DNA of 64,000 bases from Williamsia serinedens (GTDB lineage Bacteria; Actinomycetota; Actinomycetes; Mycobacteriales; Mycobacteriaceae): positions 372,001-436,000 of the forward strand of contig NZ_JAMTCG010000004.1 of the NCBI RefSeq assembly GCF_024171725.1, written 5' to 3'. Under the pieces are notes generated by a model, which was given only the letters and a program-made list of their open reading frames with translations, made no database searches and was not told where the DNA came from. Positions 8,153-59,314 of the stretch are shown here, one piece after another; position 1 is the stretch's first letter; the number at the start of each line of letters is the position of its first letter. The position numbers were made by a program, and so were the translations under genes.

Positions 8153-9607
8153 GTGGCGACCCTTCCTGAACGACCCGACATCGACTGGCTCCGGCGTCAG
8201 GCGCGTGACCTGCAACGGGGCGTGCGCGCCGGTGACCCCGCCGCGCTCCGACGGTCGTCTGTCCCCGTCGCGGACAACGCCTTCCGACTCGGCGACGCCC
8301 AGCGTGTCATCGCCCGCGAGCACGGGTTCGCCAGTTGGCCACGCTTGCAGTCGCACGTCCGTGCCATCGCCGGCCGCACGTGGATCCCGAGCCCACCCCC
8401 GCAGGACCAGTCACCCGCACACCGGTTCGTGCGGGCGGTCTGCGAGACCTGGACCGGCACCGCCCCCGACCTCGACATCGCGCGGGCCGTTCTCGCCACG
8501 CACCCCGAGATCGCCGACGACGTGGCCGCGGCGACCGTCCTCGGTGACGTCGGGCGGGTGTGCGAGCACTGCCGCTCCGAGCGCCCCGACGCCCCGTGCG
8601 GTCCGTTCGGGTGGTCACCGCTGATGTACGCCGCGTACTCCCGGTGGCCGGTGAGCGAGGCCGACGCGCTCGGCGTCGTCGAGGAGCTCCTGCGCGCCGG
8701 CGCCGATCCGGACGACGGACGGCACTTCACCGGGCACGCCAGCCCGTTCACGGTGCTGACGGGACTCTTCGGCGGCGGCGAGCACGACGAGTCCCCGCAT
8801 CCCTGTCGAGATGTCCTCGCCCGCAGGCTTCTCCGCGCGGGCGCCGAGCCGACCGACGCGCAAGTGCTCTACGACCGGATGTTCTCCGACGACGACCATC
8901 ACCTGCGCCTGCTGTTCGGGTTCGGTCTCGGATCCGGCGACGGCGGTCCGTGGCGTCGGCGCCTGCCCGACCTGGTCCCACGCCCCGACGTGCTGCTGCG
9001 GCAGCAGGTCACATGGGCAGTTCTCCACGGCATGCGCAACCGGGTCACGCTGCTCGCCGAGCACGGCGTCGACGTCGTGGCGCCCCTCCCCGACGGGCCC
9101 GGGCCGGTGCGCGCGGACGGAACCGCGATCACCCTCGCGATCCGGAGCGGACATCCCGAGATCGCCGCCGACCTGCGTGCCCGCGGCGCGGGCGAACCGC
9201 AGGTCGACGACGTCGACATACTGCTGGGGGCGATCCTCGCCGGTGACGGGCAGGCCGCCCGGACAGCCGACCAGTCGGTCCTCGTCGAGGCGCGTCGGCG
9301 TCACCCCGGGTTCACCGCGTGGGCTGCGAACCGCGGCGTCGCCGCTGTCGTAGCGGCGGTCACCGCGGGCTTCGACGTCGACGGCCTCGGCCGGTCGGAC
9401 GCGCCGATCGACCAGCCGTGGCAGACCGCGCTGCACACCGCGGTCGAGCGCGACGACGTCGAGCTGGTGGCCTGGCTGCTGGAGCACGGGGCGGACACAA
9501 CGGTCCGCGACGCGCGTTTCGGGGCGACCCCGCTCGCCTGGGCCGGTCACCTCGGACGTCCGCGGTGTGCGGACGTGCTGCGGGCCGCGGAGGCGGTCGA
9601 TCGCTGA
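8153..9607 (+). CDS. Ankyrin-repeat protein
   Basis: A 484-aa protein beginning [20 protein letters not shown] and continuing with a [15 protein letters not shown] segment, the usual N-terminal module of a family of actinobacterial ankyrin proteins. Degenerate ankyrin units follow; the clearest is near the C-terminus, [20 protein letters not shown] with HGAD, then [20 protein letters not shown]. Ankyrin repeats mediate protein-protein contacts; no enzymatic domain is seen. The start is GTG at 8153, chosen because GAGGAG lies 6 nt upstream; the open frame extends upstream into the end of the transferase gene, but that part is a shadow. It sits 139 bp after the polysaccharide block and just before cinA, with no obvious link to either. 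Confidence 0.75.
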
Positions 9608-9618
9608 GCGCGCCCGCG

Positions 9619-9624
9619 TAGTGT
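9619..9624 (+). promoter_or_regulatory. Candidate -10 element for a leaderless cinA transcript
   Basis: TAGTGT (TAnnnT), 8 nt before the GTG at 9633. There is no Shine-Dalgarno before that GTG, which favours a leaderless start. Confidence 0.3.
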
Positions 9625-9632
9625 CGGTCGAT

Positions 9633-10907
9633 GTGAGTGCGCGCGCGGGCATCGTCGTCACGGGGACCGAGGTCCTCACCGGTCAGATCTCCGATCGCAA
9701 CGGGCCGTGGGTCTCGACCCAGCTGCTCGACCTCGGCGTCGACGTCGCCCACATCACCGTGTGCGGCGACCGCCCCGACGATCTGCGGGCGGCGCTGCGG
9801 TTCCTCGCCGACGAACACGTCGACCTGATCGTGACCAGCGGCGGTCTCGGCCCGACCGCCGACGACCTCACGGTCGCGACGGTCGCCGAGTTCTGCGGGC
9901 GGGAACTCACACTCGACACGGCCGTCGAGGCGCAGATCGCCGACATCGTCCGCTCGTGGAGTCTCAAGCGCGGTGCCGACCCCGACCTCGAGTCGGTGCG
10001 CGCCGCCACCCGTAAGCAGGCGATGGTCCCCACCGGGGCGACCGTCATCGCCCCGGCCGGCACGGCGCCGGGCGTCGTCGTCCCCGCGGGCGACCGCACA
10101 CCCGTGGTGATGGTGCTCCCCGGACCACCCCGCGAGCTGCAGCAGATGTGGCCCGCGTCGATCGTCGCCGACAACGTGGTCGCCGCGATCGCCGGGCGGA
10201 CGGAGTCGACCACAGAGACGATCCTCATGTTCGGCACCGCGGAATCCGAACTCGCCGAGACCCTTCGCGACGCGGAGGCCGAGGTCGACGGTTTCGACAC
10301 CCTCGAGATCACCACCTGCCTGCGGCGGGGTGAGCTGGAGATGGTCACCCGCTTCGCACCCCATGCCGCCGACGCCTACCGCGCCGTCGCGGACCTCGTC
10401 GTCCACCGGCACGGCGCCACCGTGTTCTCCACCGACGGTTCGACCGTGGACGACCAGGTCGCCGAGCTGCTGTCGGGGCACCGCGTCGCGACGGCAGAGT
10501 CGTGCACGGGCGGGATGATCGCCGCCCGCCTCACCGATCGCGCCGGGTCGTCGGCGTATGTGATGGGAGGCGTTGTCTCCTACGACAACTCGGCGAAGAC
10601 CGACGTTCTCGACGTGCCCGCCGCGATGATCGCCGAGCACGGGGCCGTCAGCGAGGAGGTCGCCGCGGCCATGGCCGCGGGCGCCCTCTCCCGGCTGGGT
10701 GCCGACATCGCGGTGTCGACGACGGGCATCGCGGGTCCCGGCGGTGGCAGCGACGAGAAGCCCGTCGGCACGGTGTGTTTCGGCATCGCCCGCGCCGGCG
10801 GCGAGGTGGTCACACGCCGCCTCGTCCTCCCCGGTGACCGCGCCGACGTGCGCGAGCGGTCGGTGACCGTCGCGATGCACCTGCTGCGGCGGGCGCTCAG
10901 CGGCTGA
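9633..10907 (+). CDS. cinA: CinA family protein (MoCF-binding domain plus nicotinamide-nucleotide amidohydrolase)
   Basis: With the GTG at 9633 the protein has 424 aa and starts [17 protein letters not shown], matching the usual start of actinobacterial CinA; a GTG at 9621 is also possible. The N-terminal COG1058/MoCF-binding domain shows GTEVLTG (residues 11-17), [10 protein letters not shown] and the [13 protein letters not shown] segment. The C-terminal PncC-type amidohydrolase domain shows [15 protein letters not shown] and [11 protein letters not shown]. The family hydrolyses nicotinamide mononucleotide and/or ADP-ribose derivatives in NAD recycling, and is named from a competence-induced gene. 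The gene stands apart from the neighbouring systems. Its 3' end overlaps the convergent condensation-domain gene by 11 bp, and no terminator is seen between them. Confidence 0.93.
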
Positions 10908-12225
10908 CGAGCGACCCCGCGATCTCGGCGATGCGGGTGTCGGGCGCGTCGAGCACCGTCACGAGCAGCCCGAGGAACGCCTCGAGGTGCGTGTCGATCT
11001 CGTCCCGGCCGTACATCGTCGAGTTGCCGTGCAGGTCCACGACGATCGGCAACCCCGCACCCGCCTGGTACAGGTTCACACGCAGGTCCTGCAGGATCCC
11101 CGACGACAGGATGTGGTACCCGACGGCGGCACCGTCGAGGGCGAGCGGCTTGTCGAAGAAGACGAGGTTGACGATCGGGCCGAACGCGGTCACCCGGGGA
11201 TCGTCTATTCCGGCGGCCCGGGCGATCTCGGCGAACGGGAAGCGTTGATGGCGCAGGCATCCGGTGAGTTCGAGGGTCACCGCCTCCACCAGTGAGGCGA
11301 GGGTGTGACCGCCGACCCCGTCGAGGCGGACCGGCAGCATGTTGGCCACCATCCCGCCCGCGCGCTTGATCTTCGCGGTGGCGCGGCCGGTCACGGGCAG
11401 GGTCAGCACGATGTCGTCGCGCCCGCCCGCACTCGACAGGTAGGCCGCGAACGCGGCCGCGAGGACCGCGGCCGTCGACGCCCCCAGATCCGCCGCCGCA
11501 CCCTCGACCCGGCTCTGCAGTGCAGGGTCCATCGTGCGGGAACACACGACGTGGTCGGCGGTGTAGCGCAGGGTCGGCTCCCTGGTCGAGAGACTCACGG
11601 GCGCAGGCAGATCGGCGACCTTGGACCGCCAGTGCTGCTCGTCGACGGACCGACGACTCCCTGCGTGGTACTTCTCGTCGTCGGCCGACACCTCGGCCAG
11701 CGTCGCGCGCGGCGCGACGACATACTCCTCCCCGCGGACGGCGGCGTTGTACCGATCGACGCCCTCGTGCAGACAGGTGAGCGCGGCGAACCCGTCGAAC
11801 GCGATGTGGTGGCCGCGCAGGTACCAGAAGGTGCGATCGTCGGCGACACGGATGAAGGCGGAGATCGCGACGGGGTCGCGGGTCACGTCCATCAGACCCT
11901 GGTGGTCCGCGGCCATCCACGCGTGGGCGGCGGCGAGGGGATCGGTCTCGTCGCGCAGGTCGACGTCGACGACGTCGAACGGCAGGTCGAGGTCGACGTA
12001 CTGTCGGGGCTCGCCGTCGACGACGGTGAAGCGGGAGTACGCGGTCTCGAGCAGTCGGGAACCCTGGCGGACACCGGCCCGGAAGAGGTCGCGGTCGAAC
12101 GGGCGGTCGGTGTCACGGATGTCGAGGTAGTGGGCGACGGTCGCCGAGTAGTCGTCCTGCAGGTGCTCGGCGTCCCACATACCGCGTTGTGCCGCGGTCA
12201 GTCCGAACGGCGTACCTGCTGTCAT
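10897..12225 (-). CDS. Stand-alone NRPS condensation-domain protein
   Basis: A 442-aa protein that is a single condensation (C) domain from end to end, starting [17 protein letters not shown] and carrying the active-site motif GHHIAFDG (HHxxxDG). It lacks A, T or TE domains. It aligns along its whole length with the first C domain of the 2687-aa NRPS (59228 to about 57850): the stretch around the HHxxxDG motif ([12 protein letters not shown] ... LTCLHE ... DRYNAA) differs at only a few positions, and [12 protein letters not shown] and YHILSSG recur in both. It probably acylates the peptide or a carrier, like starter-C or PapA-type enzymes. The ATG at 12225 is preceded by GGGGGG about 7 nt upstream. 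The same frame continues upstream into the HNH relic without a stop, which I take as chance in GC-rich DNA. It is convergent with cinA. Confidence 0.85.
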
Positions 12226-12389
12226 CTGACGACCCCCCGATCGCATCCCCGATGTCGGTGCACGAGTGTACCGGCACCTCAACGCCTGCACAGGGCGACC
12301 GCGCGTCCTCCAGGAACCGGGTGATCGCATCCAGTGGGCGGTTGCCGACGTCGAGTGGGCGTTACCAGACGTCGGTTGGGCAGTAGGCG
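12226..12389. other. Intergenic region with 21-bp-period imperfect repeats (left flank of the HNH relic)
   Basis: Between about 12338 and 12386 the + strand shows imperfect units with a 21-bp period: AGTGGGCGGTTGCC then GACGTCG, AGTGGGCGTTACCA then GACGTCG, and GTTGGGCAGTAGGCG. The rest holds the ribosome-binding site of the condensation gene and nothing else that I recognise. Confidence 0.5.
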
Positions 12390-13698
12390 TCATGCGGCTG
12401 TGTCGACCCGGTCGAACTCGTCGGGTCGGACTTCGGCCGAACCGTTTTCGCCGGGTGACGCCAGCGCACGGGAGCGGTGTTCGTGGCCGGTGGGCGTGCG
12501 GATCAGCGCCTCGTGGGTGCCGCCGACGTCGATGGCGGTGGTGACCGCCCAGCCGGGGTTCTCCTTCTGCCGGTTGTGGTTCCGGCACAGACCGTTGCCG
12601 TTCACGCTGTCCGTGGATCCGCCGTCGGCGTGGGGGTGGGCGTGGTCGATCTCGGCGATCGGGGCATCGCAGTACGGCATTCGACACGTCGCGTCGGACG
12701 ATGAACCGCCGCAGGCCGGACGGGAAAATCCTGGCCCGAGACTCCATCGCGACCAGCGCGCCGGAGTCCGGGGCGGCGAACAGCCGCCGCAGCGTGACGA
12801 GCGCGTCAGCGTCGAGCGCGTCGGATATCAGGCTCCGCGCCGTGTCGGCCGGGATCAGTCCGTAGCCGGGAACGTCCGCCGTGGCGTCGGAACCAGCGAC
12901 AAGTGCGTCGGCAGAGATGACGACATCGACCGCGACCGCGACGTCCTCCGCCCCGGCCTTGCCGGTGAGTCGTTCGAGGAGGGTGTCGGCCATGACCTGA
13001 GCGCGGGTCCGGTCCCCGTCCCCGACGAGCCCGTCCGCGTGCTGCTTCAGCGCGGCGTACGCCGCGATACCTGCCTTCATGGGCAACAGCGCCGACAGCT
13101 GCACCATCGCATCGGGTTTCGGCCGCATGGTCACCCTGCGGTCCTTCGGGGCGGAGGCGTTCCGGTCGACCACAGCCTGCGGGTCCCGCTCGTAGGCGAT
13201 GCGCTTGGCCAACGCCTCGAGCGCACGGTCACCCACCCCATCGAGGGTCGCCGGGTCCGCGCAGCGCGTGATCGCTGACCCGACGGTCCTCGACCTGCAG
13301 GTAGGCAGTCTCACAGACAAGAAGCGTGGCTCGCCATTCCGACAACGACCCCTCGCCAGGCGGGCGAACGCGTTGGGCATCTCGCCCATCGCCCGCGGAA
13401 ATCCGAGGTGGCGGCCACCGGCGTTGCCGGACACCCGCCGAGCCAACGCCACCTCCGCAGACAACCCCCGACACCGCCGCTCGACCGGAACACCGGCCTC
13501 CGCCTCCGCGGCGAACCGCAGTTCCTGCAGACGCAGCGTCTGCCGTGCCTGCACCGCGGCACAGGAGGACTTCACCGATTCCGCCAGCGAGATCAGATCG
13601 ATTGCCGCGACCTCGGTGTCGGCCGCGGGCAGCTCGGCGAGCACAGTCAGCATCTCGCGCAGCGCGTCCTGCGCGTCGACGATGCCGGTGAGCTCCAT
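12390..13698 (-). pseudogene. DUF222 / HNH endonuclease (13E12 repeat family) pseudogene
   Basis: Read in alternating frames, this is a DUF222 protein with a C-terminal HNH nuclease domain. Beginning at the ATG at 13698 (MELTGIVDAQDALREML), frame 1 carries DUF222. At about 13350 one base is missing and the homologous text moves to another frame (SLSEWRATLLVCETAYLQVE). At about 13260 two bases are missing, restoring frame 1 (DPATLDGVGDRALEALAKR). At about 12690 five bases are missing (GACGACACGTGT expected, GACGTGT found), and the HNH motif continues in the other frame (MPYCDAPIAEIDHAHPHADG ... CRNHNRQKENPGW) to a stop at 12390. Three indels imply an inactive copy. The family is repetitive and partly mobile in mycobacteria. 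Expected lengths were judged from family memory, so indel sizes are inferences; sequencing error cannot be excluded for any single one. Confidence 0.8.
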
Positions 13699-13777
13699 AC
13701 GGACATGTGTACACGAGGGGTCCGACAAGACTTCTGCCTCAAAGAGCCTTGTGCACAACCGTTTCCGGTGTCCCCAT

Positions 13778-13834
13778 CTGCCCAACGAACGGTTCCTGCT
13801 GCCCAACGAACGGTTCCTGCTGCCCAACGAACGG
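13778..13834. repeat. 21-bp tandem repeat, 2.7 copies
   Basis: Two exact 21-bp copies (13778-13798, 13799-13819) and a 15-bp partial third (13820-13834). Each unit begins CTGCCCAACGAACGG and ends TTCCTG. Read on the minus strand the core CGTTCGTTGGGCAGCAGG matches 15 of 18 bases of CGTCGGTTGGGCAGTAGG at about 12369-12386 on the plus strand, so the two repeat tracts lie in inverted orientation on either side of the HNH relic. Confidence 0.9.
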
Positions 13835-13902
13835 CGAGGCGGCGAGGCGGCCGGGCGGCCGGGCGGCGGGGCGGCGGGGCGGCGGGGCGGCGAGGCGGCG
13901 GG
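13835..13902. repeat. GC-only low-complexity tract next to the NRPS stop
   Basis: About 65 bp of near-repeats of GGCGAGGC, GGCCGGGC and GGCGGGGC directly after the 21-bp repeat and up to the stop of the giant NRPS gene. It has no coding sense. It may be strongly structured as RNA, but I see no defined terminator hairpin with a U tract. Confidence 0.8.
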
Positions 13903-16500
13903 TCAGGGGGTGCGCAGGTGGAGGGCGACGACGGCGAGGACGTCGGCATTCCCCATCTCCAGGTGTCCGGCGCCGACGTCGACGCGGGTCACGCTGCCGC
14001 AGTGCGGTTCCCAGCTCGTCGTGACGGCGTCGGGGTCCGACTTGTCGGCGGTGGCGACGAACACCACGGCGGGTGCCCGCACCCGGCCGGGGCGGTGCCC
14101 GGCCGCGATCGCGTCGGCGCCGGCGAAGCTGTCCATGATCGCAGTGACCCGGTCGGCCGGCAGCAGGCCGCTCCGCACGATGTGCTCCCGCACCACTGCT
14201 GCCACCTCGTCCGGCGTCGACGCCTGCACGTCGTCACCGAGGTCGAACAGGGTCCGCCACCCGTCGAGCGGGTCGGAGGGTGCGTCGTCGGCGGTGCGGA
14301 CGTCGAGGTCACCGACCCAGGTGTCGAGCAGGCCGAGCACGGCGACCTCCTCCGCCGCCGCCTCCAGTTGTTCGGCCATGGCGTGCGCGATGTGCCCGCC
14401 CAGCGACCAGCCGAGCAGGTGGTACGGACCGTGCGGCTGGACCGCGCGGATCTCGGCGACGTAGCGCTGCGCGTAGTCCTCGATCGACTCCGGCGCCGGC
14501 TCGGCGGCGACGACGGCGGGGTCCTGCAGCGCGTGGACGGGTCGGTCCGGCAGGAACGGTGCGAGGCCGCCGTACATCCACGCCAGTCCGCCGGCGGGGT
14601 GGACGCAGAAGAGCGGCGGTCCACTGCCCTCGCCACGCAAGGTCAGCAACACCCGGCCGCCGCCCGCGCCGCTCGCGACCCGCGCCGCGAGTGCGCGCGG
14701 GGTGGGATCGGAGAAGACCCACGGCAACTCGACGGCGACACCCTGGCGTCGCAGCCTCGCGACCGCGCGCGCCGCGGACAGCGAGGTCCCGCCCACGTCG
14801 AAGAAGTTGTCGGTCACCGCCATGGCAGACGCCCCGACTACGTCGGCGAAGACCGTCGCGATCCACCGCTCCGTCTCGCCGAGGACGCCGACCGCGGGTT
14901 CGACGATCTCCGCGTCCGACCGCGATGGAGGCCGCGCCGCAGCCGACGGCTGCGCCCCGATCACCTCGACACCGCCGTCACGCATCCGCGCCAGATCACC
15001 GGTGCGGTACATCCGCGCTCCTGCCGGCCCCGCGGGGTCGGCGACGACGCGTGTGGCGGCCGCCGCACCGGGCAGGAGCGTCGGCACCGCGCTCCCCCGC
15101 AGCCACAGATCACCGACGAGACCGGCCGGCAGTGGGCGCAACCGCCGGTCGAGGACGACAGGATCGTGGGGTCCCACGGTCACGGGTTCCCCACCGAGCA
15201 CCGCGTCGACCGGTGCGACGCCCGCGACGAGCGCGTCGACGACGCGTAGGAACACGTCGCGGAACCGCTCGACGGTCGACGCGTCGTACAGCGCGGCGGC
15301 GTAGGTGATCGACCCGCGCAGCCCGTCGGCGGTCTCCGTGACGCCGACCGCGATGTCGACCTTCGCCGGTTCGGGCCCGAGCTCGACGCCGTGGACCGTC
15401 AGGCCGAGGTCGGTCAGCGCGCCGTCGACGGGCACGGCCTCGTCGAGGACGTTGAGGGTGATCTGGTGGATCGGCGGACGCCGGTCGGCGCGGTCGGGGG
15501 CGAGCAGCTCGACGAGCAGGTCGAACGGCAGGTCGGCGTGTGAGAACGCGGCGGTGTCGTCGTCGCGGACGCGTGCCAGCAGGTCGTCGACGGCGTCGTC
15601 GGGCCGCACCGATGTCCGCAGGACGACGGTGTTGACGAACATGCCGACCATGTCGGCCGTCGCGGGGTGCCGCCGACCGCTGATCGGGGCGCCGATCACC
15701 ACGTCGTCGCAGCCGGTGAATGCGGAGACCGTCACCGACAACGCCGCGTGCAGCGTCATGAACGTGCTGAGCCCACGCCGGCGTCCCAATGTCAGCAGTG
15801 CCGCGGACCGTTCGCGCCCGAGGGTCAGCTCGACTCGTCCGCCGGTGCTGTCCTCCACGCGGCGACGCGGCCGGTCGGTGGGGATGTCGGTCCGCGCGGG
15901 CAGGTCGGCGAGACGATCACGCCACCACGCCGACTGCTCCCCGAGCACCGAGGCGGGGTCGTCGACGTCACCGAGAACCGCCTGCTCCCACAGGGTGTGA
16001 TCGGCGTGGCCGAGGGCGAGCTCCGGAAGCCGGTCGCCGGCGACCCGACGGCGGTAGGCGTCGGTGAGATCGCGCGCGAGGATGTCGCCGGACGCCGCGT
16101 CACCGGCGATGTGGTGCAGGATGACGACGAGACGGTGACGCCCGCCGTCGCCGGCGAGGGCGGCACGGATCGGCATGTCCCGCGTGACGTCGAATCCCCG
16201 GCCACACAGTGCCATCGCCGCCTCGACGGACGGCGCCTCCTGCCACCACGGCCGGGCGAGCGCGTCGCCGACGTCGAGCACCTGCTGACGCGGTGTCCCG
16301 TCGTCGCCGGTCGGGAACACCGTGCGCAGTGCGGTGTGGCGGGCGATGACGTCACCGACGGCGTCGTGCATGGCCACGCGGTCGAGCGCACCGTCGATGT
16401 CGAGCGCGACCGGCATGAGGTAGGCCGTCGACGACGGGTCGAGCTGATTGAGGAACCAGATCCGTCGCTGCGCGAGCCCGAGGGGCACGACGGCGTCCGG
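13903..16500 (-). other. NRPS module 14: C - (A remnant) - T - TE
   Basis: The C domain has HHIAGDA, an alanine replacing the last glycine of HHxxxDG. After it the A domain is almost gone: only a piece around VLDRRLRPLPAGLVGDLW and MYRTGDLARMRDGGVEVIG (A6/A7 region, about 14970-15180) remains; the TSGSTG, YGPTE, KIRG and GKIDR motifs are absent. T is intact (VGGTSLSAA near 14785). The TE fills 13903 to about 14657. Confidence 0.85.
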
Positions 16501-25500: not shown

Positions 25501-28500
25501 GGCCGCCTGCCACAGGGCGACGTCGGCGTACTGGACGGGCAACGGTTCCCAGTCCGGCGCACAGCCGTGGAGGCGGGCGCCGTATGCGGTGGCGAGGTCG
25601 GACACCAGCGGCCCGAGCGACTCACCGTCGGCGGCGATGTGGTGCAGCGTCACCACCAGCAGGTGGCTCTCGGGGCCCTCGCGGACCACGCCCACCCGGA
25701 TCGGGACCTCCGACGCTACGTCGAAACCCCGTGCGGGGGCGGCGCGCACGGCGTCGGGGTCCTCCAGCCACCACGACCGGCTGCTCACGACCTCGTCGGC
25801 GTCGAGGATGTGCTGCCAGGGCGCCCCGGAGTCGTCCTGGGCGACGACGGTGCGCAGCGTCTCGTGGCGGGCGATGACGTCCCCGACCGCGGCGCGCAAC
25901 CCCGCGACGTCGAGCGGGCCGCGCAGTCGCATCGCGAACGGGATCGTGTAGGCCGGGGACTGCGGGTCCCAGCGGTTGATGAACCACATCCGCGTCTGGG
26001 CGGGGGTGAGGAGAACATGCTCGGGGCGGGGGCCGGTCGGGATCGTGTCGGCGCTCTCGGCGAGATCCCCACCGCGCGCGACGATCAGCGCCGCGAGGCC
26101 GCGGATCGTCCCTGTCTCGAGCACGTCGCGGACGCCGACGGTCACGGTGGTCCCGGCGGTGACCCGCGCGGCGATCCGGGCCGCCGACAGCGAGTTCCCG
26201 CCGAGATCGGCGAGTGTCGCCAGCACCGACGGCGTCGGGGTCCCGACGACGTCCGCGACGAGGGCCGCCACGAACTCCTCGAGGTCGCCCACCGGATCCG
26301 TGTGCTCGACGGATCGCTCGGCCTCCGCTGTGGACGCGCGGGCTCGCGACACCGGCCGGTTGTCGAACGCCTCGCCCCCGCGTGCCGAGATCGAGGACAC
26401 CGACGTGGACGGACTGCGCCCGACCACCGACAGGACCCGACGCAGGGTGTCCAGGACCGCAGCGGCCCGGTCGTCGTCGACGCGTTCGGGCAGGTGACGC
26501 AGCCGGATGACCAGGCGGTCGGCGGCGGGGACCGTGACGAGTGTCAGTGGGTAGTGGGTGGCGTCGGTGGACACGACGCCGCGGATGTCGAGCCCGTCCG
26601 CCGCGGCGAGGGTCTCGGTGTCGACGGGGAAGGACTCGAAGACCGTGACGGTGTCGAAGAGTGGCCCACCCCCGGCCGCGGCCGCGATGTCCGCGAGTCC
26701 GAGGTGCTGGTGGTCGAGCATGCGGGTCTTCGACCACTGCAGGTCGGTGGCGACATCGGCGACGGTCGCCTCGTCGCGGACGGCGACGGTCGCGGGGATG
26801 GTGTTGATGAAGAGCCCGACCATCGTGTCCGCGCCGGGGAGTTCGGGTGGGCGCCCCGACACCGTCTCGCCGAACACCACCTGCTCGATCCCGGTCATCC
26901 CCGACAGCAGGATCGCCCAGGCCGCCTGCACGAGGGTGTTCGTGGTCGTCCCGAGACGGCGGCCGGTGGCGGTGAGCGCGGCCGTGAGGTCGGTGTCGAC
27001 GACCCACTCACGGGTCCGCGGCGCCGACGGATGGGGTGCCCGCAGGTCGGGTGCGACGAGCGTCGGTTCCTCGAGGACCGCGAGTTCCTCCGCCCACGCG
27101 GATCGCGCGGAGTCGGTGTCGGCGTCGGCGAGGAACGCGAGGTACGCCCCGAAGTCGTTCTCGGGCACTCCATCCAGGCTGCGGAGGTCGTCGTGCCCGG
27201 CGAGCAGCTCGGCGAGGACCAGGGGCGCCGACCACCCGTCCAGCACGAGGTGGTGCGCGGTGATCACGAACGACGCGCCGATCTCCCCGTCGGCCAGGAC
27301 ATGGCTGATCCACCGGAAACGCAGCAGTGCAGGGGATCCGAGATCGAAGGGGGTGACGCGGTCGATGTCTGCCAGAGCCGCGACCCGCGACGCCGCATCG
27401 CCCGGCAGGTCGGTCAGGTCGTCCTGTGCCCACCCGGCCCGCGCCGTCTCCGCGACCACCACGACGGGCCTGCCGCTCGCCGACCGGACGAAGCCCGACC
27501 GCAGCACCCGGTGACGCGCGACGAGCGCGTCCGCCGCGGCGCGCATCCGGACGGGATCGGCGAAGGGTCCCAGGGTGAGGACGGTCTGGACGACGTACAC
27601 GTCGAGCGGGTCGTCGACACCGCTGAGTGCCGCCTCGGACTCGACGAGCATCCCGGCCTGCAGCGGGGTCGTCGGCCAGAGTGTGGCGCCGGGATGGTCC
27701 CGGAGCAGCAGGTCGATCTCGGACTGCGTCAGTCCGGTGCCGCCGAGGTCGGTCTCGCTCGGACCGGGGTCGCCGACCGCCGCGACGTACGAGGCGACCG
27801 TGGCGAGGTGATGACGCCAGCGGTCGGCGACGGCCCGCGCGTCGTCGGTCTCGAGCAGGGCTGCGGGCCAGGCCATCTCGAGATCCATGACGCGCCCACC
27901 GGGTGTCGCGGCGGTGGTCACCGTCGCGGTGAGGGCGGCCGTCGCGACCATGGTGCCGCGCACGGTCGCCGGGAGGCCGGGCGCGGTGACGTCGGACACC
28001 GGGACGTCCGGCGCGCGCCCGTCGTGCTCGCCGCCGACCCCGCCGGCCGCACCGAAGTAGTTGAGCGCGATCGCCGGGGTGGTCAGCGTCGATCCCGGCG
28101 CCCATCGCAGGGCACCGAAACCCAGTCCCCGGCGCGGCATCCGGGCGCGGGTGTCCTTGACCGCCTTGACCGTGGCGGTGACATCCCGCCCGACGGAAAC
28201 CGCCACCGGGACCAGTCCCGTGAACCACCCGACGGTGCCGCTGAGATCGGCACCGGCCGCGAGGGATTCCTCGCGGCCGTGTGTCTCGGTCAGGACCGCG
28301 ACCCGGTTCTCGTCGATGTCCGCGGGGTCGCGACGGCCGAGCACGTCGACGAGGGCGTGCGCGAGGGTCGCGACGAGGACCGTGTCGACGCCGGTGTCGT
28401 AGGCGGTCGCGACATCGGTGAGGACGGCCTCGGCGATCTCGGTGGGCACCGTCGTCCGCGTCGTGGTGACCGTGGACTGACGATCGCGCGCGGGGTCCAT

Positions 28501-34500: not shown

Positions 34501-37500
34501 GAAGGGGGTGGTCTGGTGGGCGAACGCGTCGAGGTCGCGGCCGCGGATCTCGGCGACGAGATCGCCGAGCGTGACGTCGTCGTCGACCGGCGTGCGGAGC
34601 ACCACCGTGTTGACGAACATGCCGACCAGTTGGTCGATCTCGGCACGCCCGCGACCCGCGACCGGCGTGCCGATCACGACGTCCTCGGTTGCCGCGACGC
34701 GGGCGAGCACCACCGCCACTGCGGCGTGGACGACCATGAACCGGGACGCGCCGATCTGCCGGGCGAGTGCGTCGAGTGCCCCGGCGGCATCCCGGGCCAC
34801 CGCGGCCTCTCCGGCGACGCCCACCCCGGACGGGGCCGGCGGGCGCGGGTGATCGAGCGGGAGGTCCAGGACGGCCGGCGCCCCGGCGAGCGCGCTCGAC
34901 CAGAAGGCGAGATCGCCGGCGTCGGAGACCTCGTCGGCCTCGACCACTCCGCGGTGCCAGACGGCGTAGTCGGCGTACTGGACAGGCAAGGGTGGCAGTG
35001 CGGGCGTCGTGCCGCCGACGCGGGCGGCGTACAGGGCGAGGAGGTCTCTGAGCAGGACCGGGACGGATTCGCCGTCGGCCGCGACGTGGTGCACCGCGAG
35101 CACGACGGTCGTCGGGGCGTCGGCGTTCTCGGCGCTGGGTGCGACCCGGGCGCGTAGCGACAGATCGGTGCGGAGGTCGAACGGCCGACCGAGCACGGCA
35201 ATCGCCTCGTCGGCGCTGTCGACGATCGCGAGGTCGAGCCGGTCGGCCGCCGTCTGCGCGTCGACGACGACCTGATGCGGTCCGTCGGCGTCCTCCGGGT
35301 ACACCGTGCGGAGCACCTCGTGGCGCGCGAGGAGGTCCATGATCGCGGAACGCACTGTGCCCGCGTCGATCCCGCCCCGAAGTCGGACCGCGAGCGGGAT
35401 GACGTACCCCGCGACACCGCGGTCGTCGTCGAGACGGTTCAGGTACCACATGCGCTGCTGCGCGTGCGAGAGCGGCAGACGCCGGTCGCGGTCGACCGGT
35501 CGCAGCGGCGGGAGGTCGGTGCGCCCGGCGCCGACGGCGTCCTGCGCGGCGCGGGCGATGTCGGCGATCGTCGACGCCTCGAACACCGCGCGGACGGCGA
35601 CGTCGTGGCCGAGGACGGCGGACAGTCGCCCGGCGACGCGGGCCGCGCTCAGCGACGTCCCGCCCAGATCGGTGAACGACCCGTCAGGCACGGATCCCTC
35701 TGCGGCGGCGTCGAGATCGAGCACGTCGGTGACGATCCCCGTGACCAGCGCGAGCAGGGACTCGTCGACGTGGTCGGCGACGGCGGGACGCGTCGACCGC
35801 CTCGGTGCGTCGATGACGGCGAGCACGAGTTCCCCGGTCCGCGACCATCGCACGGCGAGTCCGGCGGCGAGCCACCGCTCCCCCGGCTCGCCGGTCGGCG
35901 GTGCGACGACGTGCGCTGCCGTGGCGCCGGCGTCACCCGTCGCCCATGGCACCATGTCGCCGGCGAGGAACAGCGATCCGACCGCCCCGGGCGCCGCGGG
36001 TCGCAGTCGGGCGTCGAGGACATGGGCTGTCACCCCGCCCAGGGGACGACCGAGGGACACGACGGCATCCGGGGACACGTCGCGATGCAGGACACCGAGC
36101 GGCATCCCGTCGAGCATGGTCAGGGTGTGGAGCCGTACGCGGCGGAACCGGTCGACGACCGCCGGCATGGTCGACATCGCGTCACCACGCCCTGTGACGA
36201 CCGCGAGCCGTGCGGCGGGGGTCGTCTCGAGGGTCGTCGCGACCACGTCGGCCGGTGTGCAGACGACGGACGCGGCGGCGCGGTCGTGGGTGATCGTCGC
36301 GCCCCCGAGCGCCGCCCACAGCGTGGCGACGACGCCCGCGGGGCTGCCGGCGTCGTGCGCGACGAGCACGTCGTCGCGGGAGTCGACGGGCAGTCGTTCG
36401 GCGCGCCAGGCGAGATGTGCGGCCAGCGCGGCGCGGGTGACCGTGTGTCCCTCGGCGACGATCGCGGGAAGTCCCGGGTCGGCGTGCACGGGCGGGAACG
36501 TCGCCGCCGGCCGGTCGACCGATACCAGCCGGTGGGCAGCCCGGTCGGCGTCGGACACGACGTGGCCGCCCGCGGCGAGCACCGCGAGGACCCCGACGGC
36601 GAACTCGTCGGACATCGGGATCGCCACGGCAACCGGGGTTCCCGGTCGGACACCACGGGCCGCGAGGTCGGCGGCGACGGACTCGACCTGCGCGGCCAGG
36701 GCACCGCGCGACACGAGCAGGTCGGCGAGATCGACCGACGGCACGACGGCGGCCGGGACCGCCGACCGAGCCGACGCGGGCCCCGCGCCCAGGTCCCCGA
36801 CCGCACGGTCGGGCGCGGCGACGCCCTCGGCGAGGACGGAGGCGAGCTCGCGCGCGACGGACGCGGCCGTCGCCGGGTCGTAGAGGTCGGTGGCGTAGGC
36901 GAGGGCGCCCCGGAGTCCGACGAGGGCACCGGTCTCGTCGCGGGTGGTGGTGACGCCGACGGTCAGGTCGAAACGCGCTGCGGGAGGGCCGGGGTCGACC
37001 GGGGTGACGGCGAGTCCGTCGACCTCGATGGCGCCGCTCGGGGTTTCGGCCACGGACACCATCACCGACGCCAGCGTTAAACCGTCGACGTCGCGGGGGG
37101 CGACGCGGTCGACGACGAGCTCGAACGGTGCGTCGGCGTGGTCGAAGGCGGCGAGGTCGGTCGCCCGCACCGCGTCCACGAGCGCATCGAAGTCGTCGTG
37201 CGGCGCGACGGTCGTCCGGAGCACGAGCGTGTTGACGAACATGCCCACGAGGTCGTCGAGTTCGGTGCGGCCGCGCCCGGACACCGGGGTGGCGATGGTG
37301 ACGTCCGTCCGGCCGCTCCGGCGCGCCAGCACGACGGCGAGCGCGGCGTGCACAGCCATGAAGACCGTGATCCCGCGGTCGCGACACCACCGGTCGAGAC
37401 GGTCGGCGATCGCGTCGAGAGGGACACGAACCTCGCCGCCCCGTCCTGTCGGCGCGGCGGGTCGCGGGTGGTCGGTCGGGACCGTGGCCGGATCGGCGAC

Positions 37501-51168: not shown

Positions 51169-52950
51169 GCGGACTCGGCCCCGTCCGTCGAGAACGCCGT
51201 GTCCTGGCCGCCGAAGGCACCGCCGACGGCATCGACGAGTTCGGCGGCGCGGCGGGCGATCGCGTCCACGGCGACCTCGACGGGGTCCCCGTCGGACCCG
51301 GCGGTCACCGCCAGGGTCGGGACGAGGCTCGTGAGGGCGACGACGAGGGCCGTGCCCGCGTCGGTGTCGGGGAGTGCCGTCGCCATGGCCACCGCCGACG
51401 CCTCGAGGTCGAGGAACGTCACCGCGGCCCCGTCCTGGTCGATCGCGACCACGTCGGGGAGCACGGCCGCCGCGGCCGACACCAGACCGGCGGCGGCGGA
51501 CGCCGCGACGAGAGCGCCCCGGCCGGAACGGAACCCGTCGGAAGGGTCGTCGAGGTCCACGTCCTCGATCGTGAGGTCTCCCACGGCCGTCGTGGGATCG
51601 TCGACGACAGCGCGCAGCAATCGGAGCCAGCGCTGCACCAGCGTCTCGACGGTCGCGCGGTCGAAGAGGGCCGTGTCGTAGGTGACGCGACCACCGAGCG
51701 CGCCGGCACGGTCCACCCCATCGCGGTCCCCGGGGAAGATCGCGACCTCGAGGTCGACCTTCGCGGTCGTGGTGGCGTCATGCCGCGGCGTCACGCGCAG
51801 TCCGTCGAGCGTCACCGCCGGCAGGTCCAGATCCTGGAACGCCAGCGTCACCTGGAAGAGAGGGGTCGCCGACGACGGCGCTCGACCGAGGACGTGGTCG
51901 ACGATGCGGTCGAAGGGGACGTCGGTGTGCGCCAGGTCGGCGAGGTCCTCCGCGCGGACCCGGTCGAGCAGGTCGGTGAAGGGCTCGTGCGGCGAGATGC
52001 GCGTGCGCAGCGGCACGGACGTCACGAACATCCCGACGACGTCGGCGACCCGTCGGTCGTCGCGACCCGCATGGGGTGTCCCGACGACGACGTCGGTGCG
52101 GCCCGACGACCGCGCGAGCAGCACCGACCACGCCGCGTGGACGACCATGAACAGCGTCGCCGCATGTGATCGTGCGATGTCCTCGAGACCCGCGACGATG
52201 TCGGCGGGGACGGTGACGTCCACGGTCCCACCGCTCCCCGGTCGGTCCCGACGCGGTCGGTCGGTGGGCAGGTCGCTGCGCTCGGGCGCCCCGGACAACC
52301 GGCGCGACCAGTAGGCCAGCTGGCGCTGCTCCTCCGTCGTGCTGTCGGGACCGGCCGTCGACAGGAACTCCGCGTGCCAGCGGGACCAGTCCGCGTAGTC
52401 GACCTCGGTCGGGCGACGACCGTCGACGACCGACCGTGTCCCGCCGACGCGAGCGGCGTAGGCGGCGGCCAGGTCCCGGGTCAGTGGCGCCAGCGACGCG
52501 CCGTCGGCGTTGATGTGGTGGATCGCGACGACGAGCGCATGGCGCTCGGGGTCGACACACAGGATCCCTGCGCGGACGCCCGGCTCGGCGACCAGGTCGA
52601 AGCCGCGACCGGTCACCTCTGCGACGGCCGCGTCGAGCGCGGCGGGATCCACGTCGCGGACGGCGATCTCGATCGCGTCGAGGGCCTGGTCCGCCGGGAC
52701 GATCACCTGGACGGGCCGGTCCCCCACCAACGGGTAGACCGTTCGCAACGTCTCGTGTCGTTCGATCACGTCGCGGACCGCACCGGTGAGCGCGTCGACG
52801 TCGAGCGGGCCGGCGAGGTCGAGCACGAGCGCGATGACGTACGCCGAGGACTGCGGGTCGGCTCGGTTGATCGTCCACAGACCGCGTTGGCGGTCGGAGA
52901 CCCCGACCACCTCGGGACGGGGACGACGAACGAGGTCGGGACGTCCACTC
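51165..52950 (-). other. NRPS module 3, first part: C domain and C-terminal tail
   Basis: C domain with HHINADG. The tail after about 51570 carries an A1-like VTFLDLE segment and ends in DPVEVAVDAIARRAAELVDA, an Ala-rich helix. The N-terminus of the downstream synthetase has the same two elements in the same order, so these may be matching docking ends or the scar of a gene split. Confidence 0.7.
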
Positions 52951-55900
52951 GTCGGCGCGGTCGCGAGGACCGCGGCGAGCGCTGCGGGCGTGGGGTTCTC
53001 GAAGACCGTCGCGACCGGGACCCGCCGGTCGAGGACACGGTCCAGGTGGGTGGCGAGTCGCGCCGCCGACAGCGACGAACCGCCGCGGGCGAAGAAGTCG
53101 TCGTGCACTCCGACGCCGGCATCACCCAGGATCTCGGCGACCGCGGCGACGACCACCGTCTCCATCTGGGTGCGCGGCGCGACACCCTCGCCGGCGACGA
53201 CGATCTCGACCGGCGGCAGGGCCGTGCGGTCGATCTTGTGGGTGCGCGTCGTCGGGAACGCGTCGAGCACGACCACGGTGTGCGGCACCAGATGCGCGGG
53301 GAGTCGCGTGCGGGCGCGGTCCATCAGTCGCTCCGGCGAGGCGTCGCGGCCGGTCACGTAGGAGACGAGCACGGTCTCCCCGGACGGGGCCGTGACGCCG
53401 ACGGTGACGGCACCGTCGACCGCGGGATCGGCGGTGAGCACGGCGTCGACCTCGCCCGGTTCGATCCGCATGCCGCGGATCTTCACCTGGAAGTCGTTGC
53501 GACCGTGGTAGACGAGTGCCCCGGAATCCGTGCGCGACGCGAGATCGCCTGTGCGGTAGAGACGCTCGCCGGGGACGAACGGGGACGCGACGAATCGCGA
53601 CGCGGTGAGGTCGGGACGACCGTGGTACCCCCGACCGAGCGCGGCTCCCGACAGGTACAGCTCCCCCACCACGTCGACCGGGACCGGCCGCAGGCCCGGA
53701 CCGAGGACGAGGGCGCCGACGCCGTCGATCGCGGTGCCGATGGTCATCGGGTCGCCCTCGCGCAGGGGCGATGTCGCCGTCGAGGTGATGGTGGCCTCCG
53801 TCGGGCCGTACAGGTTGACCACACCGCGACCGCTGCGGGACCAGCGGGCGACGAGTTCCGGCGGGCAGACCTCGCCCGCGACCATCATGGTCGCGATCGA
53901 CGGCACCGCGGCCGGGTCGATCGTGGCGGCCACCGACGGCGTGAGCACGGCGTGGGTCACCCCGTGCCGGTCGACGACCGACTCCAGGTCCGCCCCGGCG
54001 AAGACGTCCGACGGGCTGACGACCAGTTCGGCACCGGCGCACAGCCCGAGGACGATCTCGAAGACGGCGACGTCGAACCCGGGCGACGCGACGTGCAGGA
54101 CACGGCTCGACGGCGAGACGCACAGCAGCCGGCGTTGCTCGGCGACGAGGGCGGCCAGCCCGGCGTGGGTGACACCGGCTGCCTTGGGTGTCCCGGTGGA
54201 TCCCGACGTGAAGAGCAGATAGGCGAGGTCGTCGACGCGGATCGTGCGCGTGCGGTCGGTGTCGGTGACCGGGTCCGTCCGGTGACCGGCGCAGCGCAGT
54301 TCCACATCGGGGTCGTCGACGACCACGACCGGGACGGCCGTGTCGTGGGGTGCAGCGTCGCCGGTGGCGAGAACGAGCCGTGCCCCGCTGTCGTCGATCA
54401 TCGCCGTGACGCGGGCCGCCGGATGGCGGGGGTCGACGGTCACGAAAGCCGCACCCGTGGTGGCGACGGCGGCGATCGCGAGGACCAGATGAGCCGACCG
54501 GGGCATCGTGACGGCCACGACGTTGCCGGGTCCGATCCCCTGGGCGATCAGGTCGCGCGCGAGCGCGGCGGTCGCCGAGCGGAACTCCGTCCACGACAGG
54601 GTCACGTCGCCGGTGAGCGCCGGCGCCGTGGGATCGGCGAGGGCGGCGCCGGCGTCGAGCAGGTCGGCGAGGACGACGGGCGCCGTGGCGCTTCGGCGCG
54701 GCGCGGTGAGCGCGGACACCGCATAGGCGTCGAGGACGTCGATCGTCCCCGCGGCGCGGCCGGGGTCGGCGATCACCGCGGCGAGCACCCGGACGAACAT
54801 GTCGCCGAACCCCACGACGCGCGCCTCGTCGAACAGGTCGGTGGCGTAGGAGATCTCGATGCGGGTGGTGTCGGCACCCTCGGTGACCGTCCACGTCAGG
54901 TCGTATTTCGCGGCGGGGACGCGCGCGTCGATCAGTCCGGCCGCGCCCGGCCACGCACCGAGGTCGGCGAGGTGGTCGGGTCCGACGGTGAGCGCGACCT
55001 GGAACAGCGGGGCGTGCGCCGGCGTGCGCTGCGGCGCCAGCGCGTCGACGACCCGCTCGAACGGGATGTCGGCGTGTGCCAGCGCATCCGCGCGGACACG
55101 GTGGTTGTCCGCGAGCAGATCGGCGACGGTCGCGTCGGCGCGCAGTGGCGTGCGGAGCACCACGGTGGTGACGAACATGCCGACGAGGTCGGTGGTCGCC
55201 GGGTCGTCACGGCCGGCGACGGCGGTGCCGATGCTGACGTCGTCGGTCGCCGCGAGACGCGCGAGGAGGATGCCGAGCGCGGTGTGGAACACCGTGAACG
55301 GTGTCGTGCCGAATGCGCGGGCGGCGTCGCGGACACCGTCGGCGAGCTCCGCGGGCACGGTCAGGTCGACGGTCGCCCCCGCGCCGGACGCCACCCGGGG
55401 CCGGCGGCGATCGGTCGGCAGCTCGAGCAGCTGCGGTGCCCCGCGCAGCTCCTCCTCCCAGAACGCGATCCCATCGGTCAGTGCCGACGACGGGGCGTCC
55501 GGGGTGCCCAGCGACTCCGCCTGCGCCACCGCGACATCGGCGTACTGCAGGGGCAGTGGCGCGAACGCCGGTGCCCGCCCCGAGCGCCGGGCCTCGTAGG
55601 CGTGGACCAGATCCGACAGCAGTGGTCGCAACGAGAACCCGTCGGCGGCGATGTGGTGGACCACGACGACCGCGACGTCCCCGGCAGGGTCACCGGTGAC
55701 CACCGTGGCCCGCAACGGGACTTGCGACTGCAGGTCGAAACCCGTCCCGGCGAGACGCGCCACGGCCGCCGAGCGGCCCCCGGCGGCCGCGTCCACCACG
55801 ACCGGGCAGCCGGACTCCAGGCGTGCCATCGCGGCGGGCGTCGACAGGATGTGCTGGACCGGTTCTCCGTCGACCGCGGGGAACACCGTCCGGAGGATCT

Positions 55901-58900
55901 CGTGGCGGTCGAGCACGTCGACGACCGCCGAGCGGAAGGCGTCGACGTCGGCGGCCTCGGCGAGCGCGAGGGCACCGGACATGTTGTAGGCCGGGTCGTC
56001 CGGGGCCATCCGGTGGGTGAACCACAGGCGGGTCTGGGCGGGTGCCAACGGGATCGGTTCCGGCCGCGGACGCCGGGCCGGGGCGACGACCACGTCCGTG
56101 GGCACGGCACGCGCCGCGAGGGCACGCAGGTCGCGTGCGTCGAAGACGTCGACCAGCGCCAGGTCGACCCCGACGGCGCGGGCGCGCGACACCAGGCGTG
56201 CGGCCAGCATCGAGTCGCCCCCGAGCCGGAACAGGTTGTCGGTCACGGAGACCGGCGCGCCGGGGAGGGCGTCGGCGACGAGGTCGACGACGATCCGTTC
56301 CACGGGCGTCGCGGGCGCGACGAGGGCCGAGGCGCGGTGCGCCACCGGGGCAGGGAGTGCGCGTCGGTCGAGCTTGCCCGAGCGCGTGGTCGGGAACTCG
56401 TCCACCGTGACGACCGCCGCGGGCACCATGTGCTCGGGCAGTCGGTCGGCGCACCACGCCCGGACCGCGTCGGTGTCCGCGTCGCCCCGGACGTAGGCGA
56501 CGAGCACGGGCGCGGGTCCCATGTCGCGGCGGGCGACGACGACGGCGGCGCCGACGCCCTCCATCGCCGCGACGACGGCGCCGATCTCGCCCAGTTCGAC
56601 ACGGCGGCCGCGGATCTTCACCTGGTCGTCGACGCGACCGAGGTAGTCGAGCACGCCGTCGTCGCCCCACCGGACGAGGTCGCCGGTGCGGTACATGCGC
56701 GTCCCGGCGTCGCCGGACGGGTCGGCCACGAAGCGCTCCGCCGTCAGCCCGGTGGCCCCGACGTACCCCGCCGCGATCTGGGCACCGGCGAGGTACAGCT
56801 CGCCGATCACGCCCGCCGGGACCGGCCGCAGGTGCGCGTCGAGGACTCGGGTCACGGTCCCCGGCACCGGTCGCCCGATCGGGACGGGGTCCTCACCGCC
56901 GACGACGTGGCTCGTCACGTCGACCGTCGCCTCCGTGGGGCCGTACAGGTTGACCAGCGTCGGACCGTCGTGGGCGAGCACCCGCGCCGCGGTCGCCGCG
57001 TCCAGTGCCTCGCCGGAGGTGATGACCAGCCGGACCCCCGGCGGGAAGGGGGACGCCCCGACCACGTCGAGGTAGGTGTCCAGCATCGACGGCACGAAAT
57101 GCAGAACCGTGACCCCGGCCGCGGCGATCCGCGTCCGCAGGTGGTCCGGATCGCGGTGGCCGTCGGGTGCGGCGAGGACCATGCGGGCCCCGGTGGTCAA
57201 CGGCCACAGCAGTTCCCACACCGACACGTCGAACGTCGACGGCGTCTTGTACAGCACCGCATCGGTCGCGGTGAGCGAGTGGTCGTCCTGCATCCAGGCC
57301 AGGCGTGTCTGCACCGCGGCGTGGCCGACCTCGACGCCCTTGGGCTCCCCCGTCGACCCGGACGTGAACAGCACGTACGCGGGCAGATCGTGCGGGACGG
57401 GCTGCGCGAAGGACGCGACGGGCTCGGCGGCGCGCCAGGAGACGAGGCCACCTGTCCGGCCGACGAAGTCGGCGTCGACCGTCGCGGCAGGACGGACCCG
57501 TCGGGCGATGCCGGCACGCCGGTCGGCGGGGTCGGCGGGGTCCACCGGGACCCAGGCGGCGCCGAGGGTCAGCGCCGCGTACACCGAGCAGACCTGCTCC
57601 ACGCCACGCGGCAGCGACAGGACGACCCGGTCCCCGAGCGTGACCCCCTCGTCGGCGAGCACGCCCGCGAGTCCGCGACGGGCACGGTCGAACTCGGCGT
57701 AGGTGAGGACCCCGGCGCCGTGGTCCAGGGCGACCGCGTCGGGTGTGGCCGCGACGTGTCGCTCGAACGCGGCGAGGACGTCACCGTCGTCGGCCGGCGT
57801 CTCGACGGCGGGCCCGGCGGAGAACGCCTCCACGCGTCCGACCTCGCCCGGCAGCAGCAGATCCAGGTCGGCGACGGAGACGTCGGTTGCGGCGACGAAC
57901 CGGTCGAGGAACGTCAGGAACCGCCGCAGGTGGGTGTCGATCTCGGTGGCGGTGTACCGGGCGGCGTTCCCGTGCAGGTCGATCTCGAGCGGGGCGTCGG
58001 TACCGGCCTGGTAGACGTTCAGCCGCAGGTCCTCCGCGACCCCGGACGACAGGATGTGGTAGTCGACGTGGGCGCCCTCGAGCGCGAGCGGTCGGTCGAA
58101 CAGGACCATGTTCACGATCGGCCCGAACGACATGGACGACGCGTCGGTGCGACCGGCCAACGCGCGGATGTCCTCGAAGCGGAACCGCTGATGTCGCAGG
58201 CATCCGGTCAGCTCGAGCGTGGCGGCCCGGACGAGGTCGGCGACCGAGGTGCCGTCGGCGACGGGCAGTCGCACCGGCAGCATGTTCGCGACCATGCCCG
58301 CGGATCTCTTCACCAGCGCCGTCGTGCGGGCGGTGACGGGCAGGCTCAGCACGACCTCGTCGCTCGCGGTCATGCGGGCGAGGAACGCGGCGAACGCCGC
58401 GCCGACCACCGCGGGCACCGACGCCGACATGCCGGTCGCGGCCTCGGACAGCCGGATCTGCACCTCGGGGGCGAGTCGCGAGCCGGCGGCCACGTGGCGG
58501 TGCCGGTCCGGGTCGTCGGGCGCCGGGGTGGCCCGGCGCGTGAGCGTGATCGGCTCGGGCAGGTCGACGACGCGCTCGGCCCAATGGGCACGATCGGTCT
58601 CGTACCGGCCGGTGGATCGGTACCGGGCGTCGTCCGCGACCACCTCGGCGATGTCCGCGCGACGCGGCGGGGTGAACGCGTCACCCCGGGTCGCGGCGTT
58701 GTACCGGTCGATCGCCTCGTGCAGACAGGTCAACGCGCCGAACCCGTCGAAGGCGATGTGGTGCCCGCGCAGATACCAGAACGTGCGGTCGTCCGCGACG
58801 CGCAGGAAGGTCGACACCGCGACGGGCTCCCGTGTGAGGTCCATCGGACGCTCGTGGTCGGCCGCCATCCAGGCGTGGGCGGCGGCGACCGGGTCGGTCT

Positions 58901-59228: not shown

Positions 59229-59314
59229 CGCCCCTTCGACATTTCTCCCACGACCCTCGACAGACCGGCCCGCCTGCGCGCACATCCCCCGAGGTGCGCC
59301 GGTGAGCCGCACTG

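Follow-up and report, generated by a model that had tools for sequence, protein, structure and literature searches.

A free-standing starter-type condensation domain at the end of a 14-module Williamsia NRPS locus as a candidate trans-acting acyltransferase

The window analysed here, a 64,000-nucleotide stretch of Williamsia serinedens DNA on contig C4 of genome G000, holds a nonribosomal peptide synthetase (NRPS) of two proteins encoded on the reverse strand. NRPS1 (positions 51165–59312; 2715 aa as listed) reads Cs-A-T-C-A-T-C followed by a C-terminal stretch, with a Ser code in its first A domain, and NRPS2 (13903–51168; 12421 aa) completes module 3 and continues through module 14, has E domains in modules 5 and 9 and ends in a thioesterase (TE) domain (13903–14670). 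Beyond a spacer of 1677 bp (12226–13902), and likewise on the reverse strand, lies the last gene of the island, which encodes a free-standing starter-type condensation (Cs) domain of 442 aa (10897–12225; hereafter SA) consisting of a single Condensation domain (Pfam PF00668, E = 1.1e-44). Its stop is overlapped by 11 bp by the convergent, forward-strand cinA (9567–10907; identified by Pfam CinA), which forms the island border. The SA reading frame stays open far upstream, to a TTG at 13827 (976 aa); the ATG at 12225 as start agrees with the starts of the orthologues in an uncultured Williamsia (G005) and in W. deligens DSM 44902 (G006), and a G-rich, ribosome-binding-like stretch precedes it in all three.

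The first A domain of NRPS1 has the code DVWHISLVDK, which fits serine. Counted without SA, the pathway has 14 T and 14 C domains and every module has its own C domain; SA is thus not needed for elongation, and the same count led us to reject a role for it in replacing an absent C domain. In the window, three of the 14 modules are without a working A domain: that of module 7 is degenerate (35824–36756, reverse strand; full-length in genome G001 and in W. maris DSM 44693, G007), module 10 passes directly from C to T where the A domain is missing (26272–26391, reverse strand) and module 14 retains a fragment (14965–15201, reverse strand). In G005 the same three modules are affected, in W. deligens modules 7, 13 and 14, and in G001 and W. 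maris none; stepwise A-domain loss with possible trans loading is one possible account of this pattern. The carriers of the three modules of the window still have GGxSL motifs, and their C domains (HHIASDG, HHLVLDG and HHIAGDA) are present too; these modules may be loadable in trans by some A domain, a question separate from SA. A first-pass annotation of this DNA had considered that SA might supply acyl transfer in trans to an A-less module. This idea fell away, as a C domain does not load a carrier, no module is without a C domain, and both G001 and W. maris keep SA alongside complete A domains (G004, a Williamsia metagenome-assembled genome (MAG), was read in part only); SA therefore does not serve the A-less modules.

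Other features of the two synthetases deserve a record. The C domain of module 14 has HHIAGDA in place of HHxxxDG in all four genomes compared (the window, G005, G006 and G007). In both the window and G001, the end of NRPS1 (51165–51572) and the start of NRPS2 (50812–51168) each look, by eye, like the opening part of an A domain, and the two could perhaps form a docking pair built from A-domain pieces. In W. deligens, NRPS2 is read as two overlapping frames of 2,215 and 10,761 aa (L034–L035), from either a frameshift or an assembly error.

Among the NRPS proteins of the window, SA is most similar to the starter C domain of NRPS1 (ST; 57864–59156, reverse strand), its paralogue, whose nearest solved sequences are RzmA Cs, CDA-C1 and EntF. 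BLASTP aligns SA residues 8–435 with NRPS1 residues 53–483, with 242 of 431 positions identical (56%) and 300 similar (E = 9e-141), and the second-best match, another C domain of NRPS1, reaches 26% and 70.9 bits; the resemblance of SA to ST far exceeds chance and the general level among C domains. This confirms the kinship with the NRPS1 starter proposed in the first-pass annotation, and the sequence blocks named there are present in both domains. The extent given for the match, about the first 430 residues of NRPS1, is correct in length (431 aa), although the match starts at residue 53 of the listed ORF and not at residue 1, and ‘near twin’ was too strong a term for 56% protein and 70% DNA identity. 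Codon agreement at identical residues varies from 36 to 82% per 30-residue block and the longest exact DNA run common to the two is 17 bases; neither measure points to recent copying, and on these values we also rejected gene conversion between the two domains. The remainder of NRPS1, the whole of NRPS2 and the 1.7-kb spacer lie between the two copies.

SA and the starter occur together in six of the eight Williamsia genomes searched; put differently, SA is found in 6/6 genomes with this starter and in 0/2 without it, and it is a lone domain in all six. From the larger family, 401 genomes were drawn evenly and scanned, with four candidates scored per genome, and 58 of them held relatives at a threshold of E = 1e-95. 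The matches listed at this threshold from outside Williamsia all lie in frames of 1,540 aa or more, except in G419 and G439, whose frames are the only listed ones below 900 aa and are broken starters joined to A-domain pieces. At 1e-60 (101 genomes), five frames outside Williamsia fall below 900 aa; the three that were read (G027, G042 and G050:C18) each continue into A-domain sequence, and G050:C13 and G033:C159 are the two outside that reading. Of at least 80 loci scanned, 43 were examined, of which four are free-standing, all from Williamsia, 38 are NRPS starters and one (L099) is cut by a contig end. Downstream of 18 TE relatives in 12 Gordonia genomes, no C-domain match was found within 637–1470 bp, a span in which a copy at the window distance of 1677 bp would be missed; Gordonia copies farther from the TE were detectable by the locus scan and the 401-genome scan.

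The island has the same borders throughout, with cinA adjoining SA and rpsQ upstream of NRPS1 in 6/6 genomes, these two ends sitting on separate contigs in G004. In G002, without any NRPS domain match at this site, about 4 kb separates cinA from rpsQ, and the contig of G003 ends before the site is crossed. The gap between NRPS2 and SA measures 69 bp in G001, 72 bp in G004, 69 bp in W. maris, 222 bp in W. deligens, 412 bp in G005 and 1677 bp in the window. The spacer of the window carries one repeat of 21 bp (2.7 copies) and one of 8 bp, CGGCGGGG (8.9 copies), and nothing similar to it was found in the other clusters read; it looked like a 13E12/DUF222-HNH remnant, but it has no Pfam match at E up to 5. 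Beyond the window end (contig position 436000) and past ribosomal protein genes, a second giant NRPS frame (11,379 aa; G000:C4, approximately 442000–474500) has its own starter-type C domain with 36% identity to SA. A different large NRPS likewise starts right after rpsQ in another genus (G019, L048), so NRPS loci may have settled repeatedly at this end of the ribosomal operon.

A tree of 51 rows (the 15 rows of alignment A1 and 36 of the 43 examined loci, after seven same-genome duplicates were dropped) places the six SA copies in one clade (100/99), split internally into two species groups, one with the window, G005 and G006 and the other with G001, G004 and G007. Its sister (97/94) comprises the window-type starters (window, G005 and G006) and five Gordonia starters (soli, paraffinivorans, lacunae, namibiensis and alkanivorans); the two together are supported at 100/98, and the W. 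maris-type starters (G001, G004 and G007) fall outside. With groups that were named after the tree was seen, AU tests rejected SA with all Williamsia starters (p = 0.0019) and SA with the maris-type starters (p = 0.0034), returned p = 0.0016 for all Williamsia starters together, and did not reject SA with the window-type starters alone (p = 0.062). Because Gordonia starters branch between SA and the window’s own starter, SA is not a recent local duplicate: the proposal of a duplication within the locus survives as shared ancestry of SA and ST, but not as a simple local event. The next 1,060 aa of NRPS1 also part the two species groups in a quick tree, as does the TE tree with weaker support. 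The splits in the starter, NRPS1 and TE trees suggest a single SA lineage that is associated, at the same site, with two NRPS versions that have diverged from each other.

The catalytic motif HHIAFDG of SA (residues 139–145; 11791–11811, reverse strand) is identical in all six copies, and H139, H140, D144 and G145, together with A148, are invariant in the 15 rows of alignment A1; the motif of the NRPS1 starter is likewise intact in all six Williamsia clusters. Pairwise Nei–Gojobori dN/dS values for SA are 0.135, 0.174 and 0.205 within the group of the window, G005 and G006 and 0.109, 0.150 and 0.154 within the maris group (G001, G004 and G007), rising to 0.30–0.37 between groups; SA is under purifying selection and is maintained. 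The corresponding values are 0.243, 0.280 and 0.314, and 0.083, 0.124 and 0.104, for the starter, and 0.229, 0.324 and 0.311, and 0.204, 0.191 and 0.210, for the C domain of module 2, so that SA is more constrained than the starter in the window group only and not in the maris group.

An AF2 model of SA built with 45 sequences (mean pLDDT 92.9, pTM 0.90) is closest among solved folds to RzmA Cs with C8-CoA (Z 45.8, 2.2 Å, 422 aligned residues) and CDA-C1 (Z 45.4), followed by ObiF1, with VibH (Z 34.3) and SgcC5 (Z 34.6) more distant. When the sequences were searched against solved structures, RzmA Cs came first for SA and EntF second, just above CDA-C1; for ST, RzmA Cs and CDA-C1 both ranked above EntF. 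In RzmA, acyl length is set at Y138, M143 and R148 (PMC7804268): R148A/G opens the pocket to C8, the addition of Y138A extends this to C10–C12, and Y138A/M143A/R148G reaches C14–C16. SA and the window starter alike have G138, F143 and A148. Since G and A at 138 and 148 are small, although F143 is not, both pockets are predicted to be more open than that of RzmA at these two positions and to accept medium to long acyl groups. Related lipopeptide loci of Rhodococcus commonly contain starter C domains (PMC5550956).

On the acceptor side, seven of 426 gap-free columns (18, 61, 64, 71, 111, 114 and 335) hold fixed differences between the six SA copies and the six Williamsia starters, of which position 18 is the sharpest. 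It is Asp in all six SA orthologues (12172–12174 in the window, reverse strand) and Phe or Tyr in all 40 non-SA rows of alignment A2; among the 105 scored of 130 C domains from nine NRPS locus sets (25 unscorable), it is Phe in 91, Asp in 6 (all SA), Val in 3, Tyr in 3 and Leu in 2. A gate of the acceptor channel has been placed at R2577 of FscG and A18 of ObiF1 (PMC8097023) and at E17 of CDA-C1 (PMC7804268). By alignment, this gate corresponds to SA position 15, one turn or three residues before Asp18. As helix 1 shapes the acceptor channel, a changed acceptor for SA is plausible, and the position of Asp18 in this helix fits such a change. P277, A294 and M296, by comparison, are identical in SA and the window starter and correspond to P271, S287 and T289 of RzmA, which lie near the acceptor side chain (PMC7804268); their identity would fit the same acceptor for SA and ST equally well.

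Following from these observations, we propose that SA may be a working, dedicated Cs-type acyltransferase that serves, in trans, a lipopeptide pathway of 14 modules, several of them with Ser codes. We infer the donor, the acceptor and a second acylation as follows: SA would bind a fatty acyl group of medium or long chain, with acyl-CoA the probable donor, in a pocket of the kind found in the in-line starter, and its His140 would transfer the acyl to a nucleophile other than the α-amine of Ser1. The likeliest acceptor would be a Ser hydroxyl or a side-chain amine, on a peptide either still bound to its carrier or already released, and the peptide would be left with a second acyl group. To this reading we assign a probability of roughly 0.48. 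Its directly established footing is the homology, the predicted fold, the catalytic motif, the pocket residues, the purifying selection, the locus linkage and the full set of C domains without SA. The motif, the pocket, the Cs-like fold, the dN/dS values, the 6/6 linkage, the 69–72 bp gap after NRPS2 in three genomes and Asp18 speak for this reading. Against it stand the shared acceptor-side residues, F143, the rank of EntF, the dN/dS values of the maris group, and a stretch from rpsQ to cinA in which neither an acyl-ligase nor an ACP gene was found. A FAAL route is not informed by the lack of any PF23024 match in the genome, since a mycolate-making genus should possess FAAL. Among the matches listed in our literature searches, we found no product of this locus and no assay of O- or N-acylation by SA. 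The fuller history, in which a starter C domain was freed from its NRPS, became a trans side-chain lipidation enzyme adding a second acyl group to a serine-rich lipopeptide, and was kept while the NRPS diverged or was replaced, we regard as somewhat doubtful.

SA could instead be a second lipo-initiation domain that, in trans, N-acylates the Ser carried by T1, either as a backup to the starter or with a different acyl donor, giving a product with a single acyl group of mixed length. The three pocket residues and the three acceptor-side residues that it shares with the window starter are what such a domain would have; we nevertheless consider this unlikely, given the intact motif of the NRPS1 starter in all six clusters, the fixed Asp18 near the acceptor channel and the tighter constraint on SA than on the starter in the window group.

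Distinctly less likely is an amide synthase resembling VibH or OaaC, which would pass an acyl or peptidyl group to a soluble amine and thereby cap the product or make a separate fatty acid amide. SA is free-standing and starter-related like OaaC (PMC13142362), and an amine could be bound by the acidic residue new to helix 1; but its HHxxxDG departs from the S or A that mostly follows the Asp in the OaaC group (G in 17%), NRPS2 ends in a TE, SA is linked to this NRPS in 6/6 genomes, and its model is closer to Cs domains than to VibH.

EntF works with Ser, the amino acid that the first A-domain code of NRPS1 fits, and the best NCBIfam matches of SA are MxcG and EntF, albeit far below their cut-offs. 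Together with the rank of EntF above CDA-C1 among solved structures for SA, this would fit an EntF/MxcG-type role in which SA and ST use an aryl donor such as 2,3-dihydroxybenzoate (DHB) to make a siderophore. RzmA Cs outranks EntF for both copies, however, as does CDA-C1 for ST, and EntF has bulky Y and F at 138 and 148 against G and A in SA and ST; no DHB-AMP ligase over the cut-off exists in the genome (best 248 bits versus 723.55), and from the pocket residues and this result we judge an aryl donor very unlikely. That SA is a decaying relic, as its separation from NRPS2 by the 1.7-kb spacer and the three lost or degenerate A domains of the window’s NRPS2 might suggest, is hardly credible in view of an open frame and HHIAFDG in 6/6 copies and dN/dS of 0.11–0.21 within and 0.30–0.37 between clades.

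If the proposed second acylation is correct, lipopeptide tails could be added in a simple way, with a separate and portable Cs enzyme able to recognise the peptide during its growth or once complete, and the six free copies and six in-line starters of the same genomes would allow acceptor-switching changes to be compared at single positions such as 18. Searches of the literature for a free-standing Cs domain adding a second acyl group (best 12 of 30 and 12 of 42) and for Williamsia or Gordonia lipopeptides (best 8 of 1,950) returned nothing matching among the matches listed. Mycobacterial PapA acyltransferases are free-standing enzymes of the C superfamily that acylate hydroxyls; SA groups with NRPS starters in the tree, and it has no Pap family match, with E as high as 10, in Pfam or NCBIfam, as far as these libraries include Pap models. 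VibH (1L5A) and SgcC5 (4ZNM) are also C-fold enzymes that stand free, as SA does, but their folds reach a Z of 34 against the SA model, compared with 45 for Cs domains. The two initiating domains of icosalide synthetase are reportedly both in line, in contrast to SA, which is a separate protein. This synthetase initiates two acyl units on one peptide to give a two-tailed product, and its double chain initiation is, among the matches listed, the only route to two acyl units on one nonribosomal peptide (PMC8949500).

DmgP3 is, like SA, a stand-alone C domain in an actinobacterial NRPS locus, although it is proposed to couple a piperazic acid unit and so elongate the peptide, and its C domains cluster with LCL rather than with Cs (PMC11446937). 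The C_FAA clade with OaaC (PMC13142362) shares with SA a free-standing form, a relationship to Cs domains and, as predicted for SA, an acyl donor; its motif is mostly (D/H)HxxxDS or DA (G at that place in 17%) against HHIAFDG in SA, and its pathways use separate A and ACP proteins with no multimodular NRPS, whereas SA follows the multimodular NRPS2. SA is most like the Cs domains RzmA Cs (7C1L) and CdaPS1 C1 (4JN3, 5DU9), with which it shares the fold and HHxxxDG, and its small residue at 148 resembles that of the RzmA variants that take longer chains (PMC7804268). These two domains are each the first of an initiation module (Cs-A-T), whereas SA stands alone as a protein encoded at the end of its locus and carries Asp18.
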